This document shows positions 39,063-43,720 of a stretch of 45,528 nt of DNA, piece by piece. The notes beneath the pieces were generated by a model. It had not been told where the DNA came from and made no database searches. It saw only the letters and a list, made by a program, of their open reading frames with translations. The DNA is from Deltaproteobacteria bacterium. Lineage in GTDB: Bacteria > Desulfobacterota > Syntrophia > Syntrophales > UBA8958. The position numbers and the translations under genes were made by a program. Every line of letters starts with the position of its first letter. The stretch's first letter is position 1. The stretch spans positions 1 to 45,528 of the forward strand of contig JAKPCH010000010.1 of assembly GCA_029553375.1 (NCBI GenBank). Reading direction: 5' to 3'.

Positions 39063-39818
39063 ATGAGCGGTCCCTGTCTTAAACTGACCTTCGTGACCCT
39101 GGCGGTGCTAACGCTTTTGCCGGTGGGCCCTGCTTTTGCGGGGGGAGCCGAGATCTCGCCCCCGGCCCTCGACGTCCGGGCCCTCAAGAGGATGATCGAG
39201 AACCGGGACCCCCTGGCCCTCGTCCACACGGGGAGCATCATCGAGTGCCGCGATGCCCGCATCCCCTCCTCCGTGTGCATACCCTGCGGCGAGGAGGGCC
39301 GGACGGCCCTGAAGGCCTTGCCCGAGGCGGGCCAGAGGCGGGTGGTCTTCTACGACGTCGACACCCCCCCCGACGGGACGTGTCCCGTCGTCGCCGAGGT
39401 CATGAGGAGTGGCACGGCGAAGGCCTACGTCCTCAAGGGGGGTCTCGTGGCCTGGAAGAGGGGGGGCAACGCCGTGGAGTCGCCCCGCCGTGTCCGGAGG
39501 GCCGCCGTCCCCGCCGTGAGGGCCCGGGACCTTCAGACCTGGAAGAGAAAGACACCCCTGCACCTGGTGATCGACATCCGCCCCCCTCGGTCTTACCGCC
39601 TGGGGTCCGTCCCCGGGGCACTCAACATCCCCCTGGAGGAGCTCCATCGACGCCACGGGGAGATCCCCCGGGGGAGGCGCCTCATGGTGGTGGACGAGGA
39701 CGGGACGAGGGCCTTCCTGGCCGCCGGTTACCTCACCGAGCGGGGTTTCGGCCCCGTGACGCGCCTCTTGGGGGGGATGGAGGCGTACCGGGACCTGCGG
39801 GGCGGGGAGGGGAATTGA
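39063..39818 (+). CDS. Exported protein with two degenerate rhodanese-like domains
   Basis: The 251-residue protein starts with a signal peptide (to about residue 26, GPAFAGG). Two rhodanese-like units follow (about 35-145 and 150-251), the second with VIDIRPPRSYRLGSVPGALNIP, the classic rhodanese entry motif. The active-loop cysteine is not found: the second domain has VVDEDGTRA where VxCxxGxRS is expected, and the first has YDVDTPPDGT. It may bind rather than transfer sulfur or act in signalling. It is followed after 1 bp by the multihaem cytochrome gene, so a periplasmic redox partnership is likely. Confidence 0.78.
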   Translation: MSGPCLKLTFVTLAVLTLLPVGPAFAGGAEISPPALDVRALKRMIENRDPLALVHTGSIIECRDARIPSSVCIPCGEEGRTALKALPEAGQRRVVFYDVDTPPDGTCPVVAEVMRSGTAKAYVLKGGLVAWKRGGNAVESPRRVRRAAVPAVRARDLQTWKRKTPLHLVIDIRPPRSYRLGSVPGALNIPLEELHRRHGEIPRGRRLMVVDEDGTRAFLAAGYLTERGFGPVTRLLGGMEAYRDLRGGEGN

Positions 39819-39819
39819 G

Positions 39820-41622
39820 ATGGCGTCATGTCTCACCCGCCGTCTCTTTGCGGCCGCCGCGGCCCTCTGTTTCGTCCTGTGGGGCACCCCGGAGGCCGTT
39901 GCCGCGGACGAGCGGTGTCAATCCTGTCACCGCCAGGGGGAGTACGTCGAGGCCTTTCGCTCCTGTGCCCACGGTTCTTTGTCCTGTACGGCCTGCCATG
40001 TGTCCCAGGGGGACCTCGAAACCCACATCGCCGGTCGGGATCGCCGGGGACCGACGGACTGCGGCCGGTGTCACCGGGACGTCGCCCTCCGCTACCGCAG
40101 GGACGTCCACTACTTGAAGTTCAACCTCCTCTGTCGGGACTGTCATTACGATATCCACACCGCCCCGCCGCGGAAGAAGGACCCCAAGGAGACCCTGACG
40201 GACCGCTGCACGGCCTGTCACGCCGCGGAGGACTACGCCCTCTCCGGCCACGGGAGGGCCCTGAGGGAAGGAAAGGGGGATGCCGCCTCGTGTGCCGACT
40301 GCCACGGCCTCCACAACATCCCCCTCTACGAGGGTCTCTCCGGCAGGGACGCCGCCCGGGCCGCCTACACGCGGCGCTGCCAGGCCTGCCACGGGGACGC
40401 GCGGCTGGCCCGGCGCCACGACTTCTCCACGGGGACCGTGGCGGCCTACGCCGAGACCTACCACGGCAAGGCCCTGAACCTGGGCTACCCCCGCCGCGGC
40501 GCCGGTTGCGCCGACTGCCACGACGGTCACAACATCCTGCCGCCTGGAGATCCCGCCTCGGCCCTCGGGCCGGAACGGCTCCTGAAGGCCTGCCGGAGGT
40601 GCCACGACAACGCCCGTTTCGCCATCCTCTCCTACCGGCCCCACCCGGACCCCGACGGCGGGAAGGGCGACGCCTATATCCGGGCGGGACGAAGGGCCGT
40701 CGGCGCCGTGGGGACGGGTGTCTTGGCCTTTTTCTGGCTCCACGGTCTGATCTTCTGGTACCGCTCCGTCAAGGAGGGGCTCTACGGGAAGGCGAGGGCG
40801 GCGGCCCTCCTCCCTCCTCCTCCGGGCGGCGGGGAGGCATGGGTCCGCCGCTTCGGCCCGTTGGCGATCTCCCTCCACCTTGCCCTCATGGGTTCCTTCT
40901 TCGCCCTGGCCCTGACGGGCTTTCCCCTCCGTTACGCCGAGGCGGCCTGGGCGAAGGCGGTGATGGACGCCTGGGGAGGGGCCTACCGGGCCGCCCTGGT
41001 CCATCGCGCGGCCGCCGTCGTCTTGGTCATCGCGGGGGTCGTCGCCCTGACGCGGCTTTTTCTCCTCCGGCGCCGTCTGGGCGGACCCTCGCCCCTCCCG
41101 GGACGGGGGGACCTCGACGACCTGACGGCCGTGTCGCGCTGGTTCGTGAGGGGCGGGGATCCGCCCGCCTTCGGTCGCTGGACCTATTGGGAGAAGGGGG
41201 ACATCCTCGTCGCCGCCGGCGGCCTTCTCTTCCTCGGCATCACGGGCCTGGTGCTCTGGTCCCCCGGGACGACCTCCCTCCTTATGCCTGGACACCTCAT
41301 GAACGTCGCGGCCTTCTGCCACTCCGACGGGGCCTTCTACGTGAGCCTCTACTTTCTCACCGTTCACCTCTTCCACGCCCACGGCCTCCCCTTCGGTTTC
41401 CCCCTGGGGACCGCCGTCTTCACGGGCCGCCATCCCCTGGGGGTCCTGCGGGCCTACAGGGGGAGGGAGTACGAGCGCCTCCGCGCGGAGGGTCTCCTCC
41501 CCGGCCTCACCGTCGGGCCCGCGGGGTTCAAGACGAGGGCCGCCGCCGTCTTGCTTTCCCTCCTGGGCATCCACCTGGGCCTCGTCATCCTGGCCCTCCT
41601 CATCTGGTCCTCCCTCTTCTGA
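39820..41622 (+). CDS. Nonaheme cytochrome c fused to a b-type cytochrome membrane domain
   Basis: The 600-residue protein has a signal peptide (1-29) and nine CxxCH haem c sites (Cys at 33, 56, 81, 105, 130, 158, 187, 230, 258). From about residue 292 it is membranous with roughly five or six helices (about 295-314, 347-370, 395-415, 461-481, 500-522, 572-598). Histidines inside or near helices (308, 353, 395, 492, 501, 516, 519, 521) could bind haem b, as in cytochrome b561/FdnI-like quinol oxidoreductases. It probably moves electrons between the quinone pool and periplasmic partners, for example formate or hydrogen metabolism. The rhodanese-like protein is co-transcribed. Confidence 0.85.
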   Translation: MASCLTRRLFAAAAALCFVLWGTPEAVAADERCQSCHRQGEYVEAFRSCAHGSLSCTACHVSQGDLETHIAGRDRRGPTDCGRCHRDVALRYRRDVHYLKFNLLCRDCHYDIHTAPPRKKDPKETLTDRCTACHAAEDYALSGHGRALREGKGDAASCADCHGLHNIPLYEGLSGRDAARAAYTRRCQACHGDARLARRHDFSTGTVAAYAETYHGKALNLGYPRRGAGCADCHDGHNILPPGDPASALGPERLLKACRRCHDNARFAILSYRPHPDPDGGKGDAYIRAGRRAVGAVGTGVLAFFWLHGLIFWYRSVKEGLYGKARAAALLPPPPGGGEAWVRRFGPLAISLHLALMGSFFALALTGFPLRYAEAAWAKAVMDAWGGAYRAALVHRAAAVVLVIAGVVALTRLFLLRRRLGGPSPLPGRGDLDDLTAVSRWFVRGGDPPAFGRWTYWEKGDILVAAGGLLFLGITGLVLWSPGTTSLLMPGHLMNVAAFCHSDGAFYVSLYFLTVHLFHAHGLPFGFPLGTAVFTGRHPLGVLRAYRGREYERLRAEGLLPGLTVGPAGFKTRAAAVLLSLLGIHLGLVILALLIWSSLF

Positions 41623-41702: not shown

Positions 41703-41804
41703 TAGGCATCCATGCGGCTTTAAGACCCCGTGGTTTTTCGGGAGGGAGATTCCCCGTCCCGCCCGGGGGAGAGGGTTGTTTCCGGCCACCGGACCTTGCT
41801 GCCC

Positions 41805-42692
41805 ATGACCGACCCCTGGAAGCTGTCAGACACGACCGACTCCTACGAGCCGATCAGGCCGCGGGGCGTCTCCCTGCGCCTGGCCCCCCTTATTCTCTTC
41901 TTCCTGGCCGTCCTCCTGGTCGTGGGTCTCTATCACCTCCTGCGCACCTCCGGGCCCTTCCGCATGGTCGAGGAGGTCCTCCGGGCCGACGGCGCCGTCG
42001 CCGCCGCCGTGGGGGGCGTCCAGGAGTGCCTCCCCTGGTATCCCCTCTCGGGCCGCTTGACGAAGGAAGGGGTCGAGGTGGAGATGACCGTCCGTGTCCG
42101 GGGAAGGATGGCGGAAGGCCTGGCGAGGGCCCGGATCAGGTACGAGGGCGAGGTCTGGCGTCTGACGGCCCTTTCCTTCACGGACCCCCGGGGCGTCTCC
42201 CGGGAACTCCTGCGGGAGGAGAGGAAGGGCGCCGTCTCCCGGGACACCCCCGGTTACGGTGACCTCATGGCTGGCCATCGCCTCTTCAGGTCCGGTGACT
42301 ACGCGGGGGCCGTCGAGGCCTACTCCCGGGCCATCGGCGCGAACCCGTCCTTTGAGGCGGCCTACTACTGGCGGGCGAGGGCCTACGTCAAGGCGAACCA
42401 GAGCCGGGCCGCCATGGAGGATTTCGAGAAGGTGGTGGAGATCAATCCCCGGAACGTGGACGCCCACAACTGGCTGGGCTGGCTGGCGGGTAGGGAAGGG
42501 CGTTACGACGAGTGTATCGCCTACCTTAACCGGTCGTTGGAGCTCCGCCCCGACAGCGCCTGGAGCCGTTACGAGCGGGGGAGGTGCCACTACGAGAAGG
42601 GGGATCGGGCCTCGGCCCTGGCCGACGCCGCGAAGGCCTGCGAGCTGGGGAACAAGGAGGCCTGCCGCATAGCCGAGAGGCTCAGGAAATGA
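41805..42692 (+). CDS. Membrane-anchored TPR protein with Coa1-like domain
   Basis: From ATG 41805 the protein is 295 residues. A single membrane helix (about 24-45) follows a short cytoplasmic start. Residues 50-140 (VEEVLRADGAVAAAVGG..., then ARIRYEGEVWRLTALSF) resemble the Coa1/Tim21-like assembly domain. Residues 150-290 contain about four TPR units (GHRLFRSGDYAGAVEAYSRAI, AYYWRARAYVKAN, and others). It is a likely periplasmic scaffold or assembly protein. The ribosome site before 41805 is weak; GTG 41730 would add 25 odd residues. Confidence 0.75.
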   Translation: MTDPWKLSDTTDSYEPIRPRGVSLRLAPLILFFLAVLLVVGLYHLLRTSGPFRMVEEVLRADGAVAAAVGGVQECLPWYPLSGRLTKEGVEVEMTVRVRGRMAEGLARARIRYEGEVWRLTALSFTDPRGVSRELLREERKGAVSRDTPGYGDLMAGHRLFRSGDYAGAVEAYSRAIGANPSFEAAYYWRARAYVKANQSRAAMEDFEKVVEINPRNVDAHNWLGWLAGREGRYDECIAYLNRSLELRPDSAWSRYERGRCHYEKGDRASALADAAKACELGNKEACRIAERLRK

Positions 42693-43720
42693 AGGGCGAA
42701 GGGGACTGTCTCTTCAAACCGTGCCTCTTGGAGGAAGGGCAGGCCGTGGCGGCCCTGCGGGAGATCCTGGACTGGTTCGTGGTCCCCTTCCCGAAGGGGG
42801 CGCGGGTCGGCGTGAAGGTCCACTGGGGGGAGAGGGGCAACCGGAGTCATCTCCCGCCCTTCTTCACCCGGGAGATCGTGCGGTGGCTTAAGGGGGGCGG
42901 CTTCGAACCCTTCGTCTTCGACACGACGGTCCTCTATTCCGGGGGGAGGAGAAAGGGGGAAGAGGCCCTGGAGACGGCCCGGAGGCACGGCTTCTCCCCC
43001 GGGGCCCTGGGTTGTCCCGTGACGGTCGCCGACGGCCTCGACGGCCTCGCCGTAGTGGACATCCCGGCGGGCTGGCGCCACTTCCCGACGGTCCAGGTCG
43101 CCGATGTCTTCTCCGCCGGGGGGTTCGTCGTCCTGTCCCATTTCAAGGGCCACATGGCGGCGGGGTTCGGGGGGGCGATCAAGAACCTCTCCATGGGCTT
43201 CGCCTCCCGGGCCCAGAAGCAGAGGATGCACGCCGACGCCCGTCCCTTCCTCAACCGGGGGGCCTGCACCCGCTGCGGCCTCTGCGTCCGGGTGTGCCCC
43301 TCCGGGGCGGCCGTCATGGAGGGGGAGGACTACCCCTCCTTCGACGACGGGTTATGCATCGGCTGCGCCCAGTGCATCGGCCTCTGTCCGGAGGCGGCCC
43401 TGAGGATCTTCTGGGAGACGGACAACGGCGTGTTTCAGGAGAAGCTCGTCGAGACGGCCGCCGCCGTCTGGCGTCTCATGGAGGGAAAGGCCGTCTTCAT
43501 CAACGCCCTCCTGAGGGTGACGGCGGAGTGTGACTGCCTGCCCGGGGAAAACCCCGTCATCGCCCCCGACCGGGGGCTGTTGGGGGGCTACCACCCCGTG
43601 GCGGTGGATCGGGAATCCCTGCGGATCGTGGGGGAGGAGGTCTTCGAGGGGGCCCACCCGGGCCTGAGCTGGAGGCGGCAGTTCACCTACGCCTCCGAGA
43701 TCGGTTTCCTCCCCCGGTGA
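42689..43720 (+). CDS. DUF362-type iron-sulfur protein
   Basis: The 343-residue protein has an N-terminal DUF362 domain (VKVHWGERGN, HFKGHMAAGFGGAIKNLSMG) and two 4Fe-4S ferredoxin sites at residues 193-203 (CTRCGLCVRVC) and 223-233 (CIGCAQCIGLC), each followed by Pro. No signal peptide is seen, so it is probably cytoplasmic. The function of DUF362 proteins is unknown; they are frequent in anaerobes. Its ATG overlaps the TPR gene stop (ATGA). Confidence 0.88.
   Translation: MKGEGDCLFKPCLLEEGQAVAALREILDWFVVPFPKGARVGVKVHWGERGNRSHLPPFFTREIVRWLKGGGFEPFVFDTTVLYSGGRRKGEEALETARRHGFSPGALGCPVTVADGLDGLAVVDIPAGWRHFPTVQVADVFSAGGFVVLSHFKGHMAAGFGGAIKNLSMGFASRAQKQRMHADARPFLNRGACTRCGLCVRVCPSGAAVMEGEDYPSFDDGLCIGCAQCIGLCPEAALRIFWETDNGVFQEKLVETAAAVWRLMEGKAVFINALLRVTAECDCLPGENPVIAPDRGLLGGYHPVAVDRESLRIVGEEVFEGAHPGLSWRRQFTYASEIGFLPR

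Follow-up and report, generated by a model that had tools for sequence, protein, structure and literature searches.

A rhodanese-like gene coupled to a CbcL-type multihaem cytochrome in a Syntrophales genome, probably a stand-alone diverged paralogue from a respiratory operon

We analysed a window of 45,528 nt, contig JAKPCH010000010.1 of assembly GCA_029553375.1 (Deltaproteobacteria bacterium; Desulfobacterota, Syntrophales), in which the stop codon of a tandem rhodanese-like gene is followed, after a one-base spacer (G), by the ATG of an open reading frame (ORF) for a multihaem cytochrome with a membrane b domain (Table 1). The gene coordinates and the 1-bp spacing given in a preliminary description of this sequence were exact. 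We consider it probable that the two genes, standing alone and diverged here, are paralogues of an adjacent gene pair in a conserved operon for anaerobic respiration, and that they form a specialised quinol-to-periplasm electron module in which the rhodanese-like protein has a binding or docking role.

Table 1. Features of the rhodanese-cytochrome pair and its downstream neighbours (positions in the window)
Feature	Position	Strand	Basis or remark
Tandem rhodanese-like protein, 251 aa, stop TGA	39063..39818	+	Pfam, model, fold matches, loop residues
Rhodanese domain 1 active-site loop, residues 98-107	39354..39383	+	D98 replaces Cys; C107 retained
Rhodanese domain 2, catalytic-Cys position (D211)	39693..39695	+	Loop alignment; Asp in 31/31 members
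CbcL/MtrH/MtoC-family cytochrome of 600 aa with apparent signal peptide, nine-haem c domain and six-helix b domain	39820..41622	+	
Periplasmic nine-haem c domain, residues 30-275	39907..40644	+	Nine CxxCH and nine further conserved His
Membrane b domain, FdnI/HydC type, residues 285-600	40672..41619	+	AlphaFold2 model, fold match
His353, aligned with FdnI His18	40876..40878	+	Alignment
His395, aligned with FdnI His57	41002..41004	+	Alignment
RWTYWEK motif, residues 453-459, intact	41176..41196	+	Aligned with an FdnI loop
His501, aligned with FdnI His155	41320..41322	+	Alignment
His516, aligned with FdnI His169	41365..41367	+	Alignment
TPR protein gene	41730-42692	+	Pfam
DUF362/4Fe-4S protein ORF	42584-43720	+	Pfam

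The cytochrome frame is the sole open frame in the window with at least three CxxCH motifs. Nine motifs lie at residues 33, 56, 81, 105, 130, 158, 187, 230 and 258, behind an apparent signal peptide that was judged by eye, without a predictor. The Pfam scan gave Cytochrome_C7 at 53.7 bits (cut-off 24.8) and Ni_hydr_CYTB, a cytochrome b561-type domain, at 25.6 bits, below its cut-off of 30.1. An AlphaFold2 model, made with a 21-sequence alignment (predicted local distance difference test, pLDDT, 77), has six predicted membrane helices (residues 285-318, 347-371, 388-416, 456-480, 491-522 and 570-599). The top match of the b domain among solved folds was FdnI of Escherichia coli formate dehydrogenase N (Z 15.7, 207 residues), with the hydrogenase cytochrome b HyaC second (Z 9.7); Foldseek with the whole-cytochrome model gave FdnI at E = 0.001, nothing better, and otherwise weak matches. 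Histidines 18, 57, 155 and 169 of FdnI, which we take to be the ligands of its two b haems, all have an aligned counterpart here; the domain should therefore be able to hold two b haems, and the idea of a b domain lacking haem ligands was rejected. The FdnI loop aligned with the RWTYWEK motif presumably carries quinone-site residues. The earlier claim of a nine-haem c domain fused to a membrane b domain is thus borne out.

Homologues of the cytochrome were taken from genomes of relatives (27 out of 60 had a match at E <= 1e-20, the window's own genome included) and from named GTDB contigs (the best 80 of 576 relatives). With duplicates (loci L032, L034 and L036, of L011, L012 and L021) and fragments (L025, L027-L030 and a second partial match in L106) left out, the alignment held 102 proteins. 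All of them have the nine CxxCH motifs and, in the b domain, His353, 395, 501, 516 and 521; eight of the nine further c-domain histidines are also present throughout, and the ninth, H69, in 96 proteins. Homologues from named Geobacteraceae strains are 31-36% identical to the window cytochrome, with those of Geomonas, Trichlorobacter and Oryzomonas matching at E 5.8e-103 to 8.1e-106 (33-36% identity across most of its length). CbcL of Geobacter sulfurreducens has nine c haems and a six-helix di-haem b domain and is required for low-potential acceptors; electron transfer from its periplasmic domain to PpcA was demonstrated in vitro (PMC9129911; like the other papers cited below, drawn on in excerpt). 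The excerpt reports ten conserved extra histidines in the periplasmic domain of close CbcL homologues, versus the nine of our wider set. The CbcL/MtrH/MtoC homologues that Zhong and Shi describe come from 15 phyla; their CX2CH motifs number 3 to 23, their identity ranges over 28.6-100%, and most have six helices (PMC6295460, in the parts used). Judged by its sequence, the window cytochrome fits this known family of quinone:cytochrome c oxidoreductases, so the c/b fusion is not new and its novelty was rejected. The preliminary description had proposed an uncharacterised quinone-to-periplasm conduit: a conduit is likely, and the family is a known one, with characterised homologues at the level of the family and not among close relatives.

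In the rhodanese-like protein PF00581 matched two stretches (63.2 bits, Pfam scan), and structure comparison of its model (pLDDT 85) recovered rhodanese folds. An N-terminal signal peptide is apparent by eye (no predictor was used), suggesting export. The catalytic Cys is absent from both active-site loops, being replaced by D98 and D211; with Asp at both catalytic positions the classic persulfide mechanism is excluded. The earlier account of two rhodanese-like folds lacking the catalytic Cys therefore stands, with the signal peptide resting on inspection, while the label 'cysteine-less' does not: the protein has C5, C62, C72, C75 and C107. We compared the loops in 32 rows representing 31 distinct family members (L001 and the window row are one gene; L008 lacks domain 1). 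The domain-1 catalytic position holds Cys in 19 of the 31, with Cx4C in 16. C72 is retained in 30 and C62 in 28 members, both lying outside the active loop. The paralogue on contig C37 of the same genome (row L002) retains the domain-1 Cys, and loss of this residue is also seen in relatives that retain the operon. Neither protein of the pair matched PHROGs at E <= 0.001, and a phage origin was rejected.

The association of the two genes was traced through a tree of the 102 proteins. A gene of the rhodanese pair type ends -40 to +56 bases from the cytochrome ORF in 23 cases; upstream of five other proteins stands a YeeE-rhodanese-like gene, and by our own rule the remaining 74 show neither. All 23 linked proteins fall inside one 28-member clade with support 100; one of the linked rhodaneses (L008) is a shortened, single-domain form. 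The other five clade members (L010, L017, L020, L038 and L039) have 15-19 CxxCH in the cytochrome and no adjoining rhodanese match, and the rhodanese label needs two changes on the tree. This was a quick tree in which the window row has a long branch and an unusual composition, so where exactly it belongs within the clade is uncertain. When 395 genomes were sampled evenly across the phylum, each of 11 rhodanese matches at E <= 1e-70 (10 genomes) directly adjoined a cytochrome match, and 10 of 11 cytochrome matches at E <= 1e-280 had a rhodanese; the window cytochrome scored lower (E 6.4e-239). The rhodanese link to a CbcL-type cytochrome is real and conserved, and it marks one branch of the family. 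The word 'rhodanese' did not occur in a word search of PMC6295460, and the portions of the open-licence literature on rhodanese and CbcL that we covered held no description of the pair.

At five Bacteroidota/Ignavibacteriota loci (L060, L069, L074, L088 and L110) a CbcL-like gene is preceded, at a distance of 15-103 bases, by a gene that fuses a YeeE sulfur transporter to a rhodanese, a second rhodanese link to the CbcL-like family (Pfam assignment on L069 only).

Rhodanese-cytochrome pairs with flanking sequence were available at 26 distinct loci (27 rows minus the duplicate L166). Near the pair we observed at least 22 head cytochromes, 19 genes for a 7/8-haem protein, 15 sulfurtransferases and 11 cases of ResB plus CcsA; these are lower bounds because several contigs end inside or near the cluster, and the profiles were built partly from the same loci, with thresholds of our own. 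The ResB and CcsA assignments come from Pfam and TIGR03144, in each case on single examples. The genes typically run in the order head cytochrome, sulfurtransferase, 7/8-haem protein, rhodanese pair, CbcL-like cytochrome, ResB and CcsA; at L125, an exception, the sulfurtransferase comes after the cytochrome and ResB-CcsA are on the opposite strand. The window and L169 are the only loci of the 26 with none of these five partners. The 73 loci without a rhodanese pair (among L037-L110) had no head cytochrome, 7/8-haem gene or sulfurtransferase, some of their flanks being short.

The window's own genome carries such an operon on contig C37 (L115), where the head cytochrome, sulfurtransferase, 7/8-haem gene (seven CxxCH in its product), rhodanese pair and cytochrome stand together; no ResB or CcsA gene turned up in the 19 kb of C37 examined. 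This operon is probably the main system of the genome. For the 7/8-haem proteins NCBIfam at E <= 0.001 gave nothing at L116, L117 and L115 and one weak match at L125, and solved structures gave no useful match for the protein of L117. In the portions of open-licence literature on rhodanese, multihaem cytochromes, CbcL and selenoproteins that we covered no description of the operon was found, and this larger respiratory gene cluster is apparently undescribed. A CHPGGG motif occurs in most of the 7/8-haem proteins (L117:499-2487, L116:10547-12448 and relatives); the C37 copy is without the two Cys before HPGGG.

The head cytochrome gene of C37 (L115:12436-13677, minus strand) has one conserved in-frame TGA, in G(TGA)AGxPPxV. 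A single in-frame TGA was present at 19 of the 20 loci read (not at L033; L117 and L178 are outside this count), and reading through it gave, in all 19, a signal-like N-terminus and 11 CxxCH without a further stop, with starts set by our own rule. With selenocysteine (Sec, U) at the TGA the motif becomes G-U-AGxPPxV, most often GEG-U-AGAPPPV. In the phylum sample the head cytochrome matched at E <= 1e-40 in 46 of the 395 genomes; among the 52 matches 48 had exactly one TGA, four had none (three of them partial) and none had TAA or TAG. Of the 10 genomes that carry a close rhodanese pair, nine (all but G095) had it as well, and 37 of the 46 genomes with it had no close pair. The window's genome has SelB and tRNA-Sec above cut-off.

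Two further lines of support for Sec were tried and rejected. SelB was found in 43 of the 46 head-cytochrome genomes (not in G096, G324 and G343, the last two by absence from a list only); this co-occurrence is uninformative, because 353 of the 395 sample genomes carry SelB. A stem-loop resembling a Sec insertion sequence (SECIS) can be drawn after the TGA, with 88% of cells paired versus 35-56% when partner columns are slid, and 109 of 500 shuffles reached the observed covariation; since the shuffles thus give covariation no support, the stem-loop is no proof of Sec. The known Sec cytochrome ExtKL (NF040886; PMC13188914, in excerpt) had no match at E <= 0.001 in an NCBIfam scan of two head cytochromes. 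The 11-haem head cytochrome is probably a selenoprotein family distinct from ExtKL.

A TGA was also found in the domain-1 loop of all seven distant rhodanese relatives read; six of them have the form Cx4(TGA) and the seventh (G328) has Cx5(TGA). In the phylum sample 10 of 16 weaker rhodanese matches had one TGA. A Cys/Sec redox pair is suggested by the loop sequence. That selenoproteins of rhodanese-like type exist is already known (PMC13188914, same excerpt). Loci with the loop TGA include L171, L172, L173, L174 and L175; close relatives often have Cx4C.

To describe the divergence of the window copy we defined 135 near-invariant columns, conserved in at least 97 of the 102 proteins. At 29 of these columns the window cytochrome differs: 27 of the 85 that fall in the membrane domain and two of the 50 that fall in the c domain. 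The median number of deviations per protein is one, and the next highest, in L026, is 13. Despite this divergence, RWTYWEK, all 27 CxxCH motif residues and all distal and b-haem histidines are retained. Its branch is the longest end branch in the tree (2.74). Third-position G+C of the pair (0.88-0.89) is near that of four genes of the adjacent region (0.88-0.93); at codon positions 1 and 2 the values of 0.69 and 0.54 exceed those of the C37 paralogue (0.60 and 0.44) and also those of the four nearby genes, which may reflect drift towards G+C-rich codons. No close orthologues of the window copy were found; L025, whose rhodanese also lacks the domain-1 Cys, was tried and rejected, the cytochrome part seen there keeping the conserved membrane residues.

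One could take the pair for a decaying duplicate, the C37 operon being the real system and the window copy losing function. The branch length, the unusual composition with its high G+C at codon positions 1 and 2, the 29 changed columns, Asp at both catalytic-Cys positions and the absence of the operon partners from the window would all fit decay. Yet both ORFs are intact, the haem-binding and motif residues are kept, the c domain is hardly changed, third-position G+C is near that of nearby genes, and loss of the domain-1 Cys is common to relatives that keep the operon. We consider decay quite unlikely, and regard the pair as a specialised rather than a decaying paralogue because the change is concentrated in the membrane domain while the ligands stay. 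Such a diverged copy shows which membrane-domain residues can vary with all haem ligands retained.

The two genes downstream are, as described earlier, a TPR gene and a DUF362 Fe-S gene on the same strand. At E <= 1e-10 neither has a homologue in any ORF of the other 25 flanked rhodanese-pair loci, and they were rejected as parts of the system.

In the specialised module that we propose, the FdnI-type di-haem b domain would exchange electrons with membrane menaquinol, as in CbcL, and the nine-haem domain would hand them to a soluble periplasmic carrier or reductase; the direction from quinol to periplasm is suggested by analogy with CbcL. The apparently exported rhodanese-like protein, translationally paired with the cytochrome, probably docks on its periplasmic face. 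In most relatives the domain-1 Cys could bind sulfane sulfur or perform thiol redox chemistry; the window protein, without a catalytic Cys, is more likely to be a binding, docking or regulatory subunit than a sulfur transferase. The rewritten membrane domain suggests an altered quinone partner, lipid environment or coupling.

Several observations weigh against this interpretation. The long branch, together with a composition unlike that of the alignment and the raised G+C at codon positions 1 and 2, could mark relaxed selection. The docking role is proposed from adjacency and conservation, and no biochemistry was found for any member of the rhodanese-linked branch. The proteins compared with the window cytochrome were from other Geobacteraceae, not CbcL of G. 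sulfurreducens itself, and we recognised no gene for a terminal acceptor in the window. In the phylum sample the high-scoring cytochrome of G192 (E 5e-281) lacked a rhodanese match, and at L169 (G095) the pair occurs without the rest of the operon; the parts are therefore separable.

Electrons could also leave the cell, if the pair were an outward extracellular-electron-transfer module like Geobacter CbcL, feeding an outer-membrane conduit. The domain layout is that of CbcL, which feeds PpcA and is itself required for extracellular acceptors (PMC9129911), and genes of the family adjoin mtrAB/mtoAB in other bacteria (PMC6295460), both as given in the excerpts. Against this, the window has no second frame with at least three CxxCH, no porin-like gene was noticed by the operon (first 45-60 residues of the neighbours, no porin profile being run), and the partner genes that are conserved encode rhodaneses, a sulfurtransferase and other multihaem cytochromes. 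An extracellular route thus appears rather unlikely. Flow in the opposite direction, in which the protein would reduce quinone with electrons from the periplasm (the role proposed for MtoC), can point to family members in Fe(II) oxidisers and to the lack of any feature separating the two directions (PMC6295460, in excerpt); but no periplasmic electron-donor enzyme was recognised nearby, the direction is by default that of CbcL, and we judge inward flow improbable.

The substrate of the parent operon may well be a sulfur or selenium compound. One could go further and suppose that its rhodaneses pass sulfane sulfur or selenium to the multihaem proteins, the electrons of the CbcL-like protein serving to respire polysulfide, thiosulfate, selenite or a similar chalcogen. 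Consistent with this are the Cys-containing tandem sulfurtransferase at 15 of the 26 loci, the probable Sec cytochrome heading the operon, the YeeE-rhodanese fusion upstream of CbcL-like genes at the five Bacteroidota/Ignavibacteriota loci, and the co-occurrence of rhodanese ExtH with the Sec cytochrome ExtKL in the Geobacter selenite/tellurite cluster (PMC5877670, in excerpt). On the other side, matches to the ExtH/M/N/O models are far below cut-offs, no substrate is known, and most head-cytochrome genomes (37 of 46) lack a close rhodanese pair; as the window copy has no sulfur-carrying Cys, chalcogen respiration could apply to the parent operon only. We hold it to be a tentative possibility, short of an expectation.

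With similar reserve we suggest a possible origin of the specialised pair: it may come from an undescribed chalcogen-linked module (Sec 11-haem cytochrome, active sulfurtransferase, 7/8-haem protein, Cx4C rhodanese and CbcL-type quinol oxidoreductase), of which the window copy would be an electron-only branch, with the chalcogen-carrying residues shed and the b domain rewritten. A conserved branch with rhodanese, sulfurtransferase and probable Sec cytochrome would connect a CbcL-type gateway to sulfur or selenium chemistry in syntroph-related Desulfobacterota, and the conserved operon offers something testable in a cultured relative.

Among known systems, the Geobacter ext cluster (extHIJKLMNOPQS, selenite/tellurite), which includes the rhodanese ExtH and the Sec cytochrome ExtKL (PMC5877670), resembles the operon in having a rhodanese, multihaem cytochromes, a predicted Sec cytochrome and a membrane b cytochrome (PMC5877670, PMC6148476; excerpts in both cases). 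The protein families differ: the scanned operon proteins, of relatives and of the window's own genome, scored 26-74 bits versus model cut-offs of 200-800, and the window rhodanese and cytochrome matched no Ext family at E <= 0.1. For the b-type subunits of the ext cluster the excerpt gives a Rieske/cytochrome-bc-like type (PMC5877670), unlike the CbcL-type b domain. An ExtI-like porin was likewise not noticed by the operon, within the scope given above for porin-like genes.

With SseA-type sulfurtransferases and tandem rhodaneses (PDB 1yt8, 1urh) the window protein has the rhodanese fold in common; it differs in lacking a catalytic Cys in either domain and in the conserved C62 and C72 outside the loop. 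FdnI and HyaC have the same b-domain fold, with the four aligned histidines in FdnI, but they are separate subunits fed by dehydrogenases, whereas the window b domain is joined in one chain to a nine-haem c domain and is flanked on each side by an extra predicted helix. CbcL has the same single-polypeptide layout, nine CxxCH in the N-terminal half and a HydC/FdnI-type six-helix di-haem b domain (as far as the excerpts describe it). From CbcL-type proteins, including the Geobacteraceae homologues, in which a rhodanese pair is not directly adjacent, the window cytochrome is set apart by its coupled rhodanese gene and its strongly diverged membrane domain.

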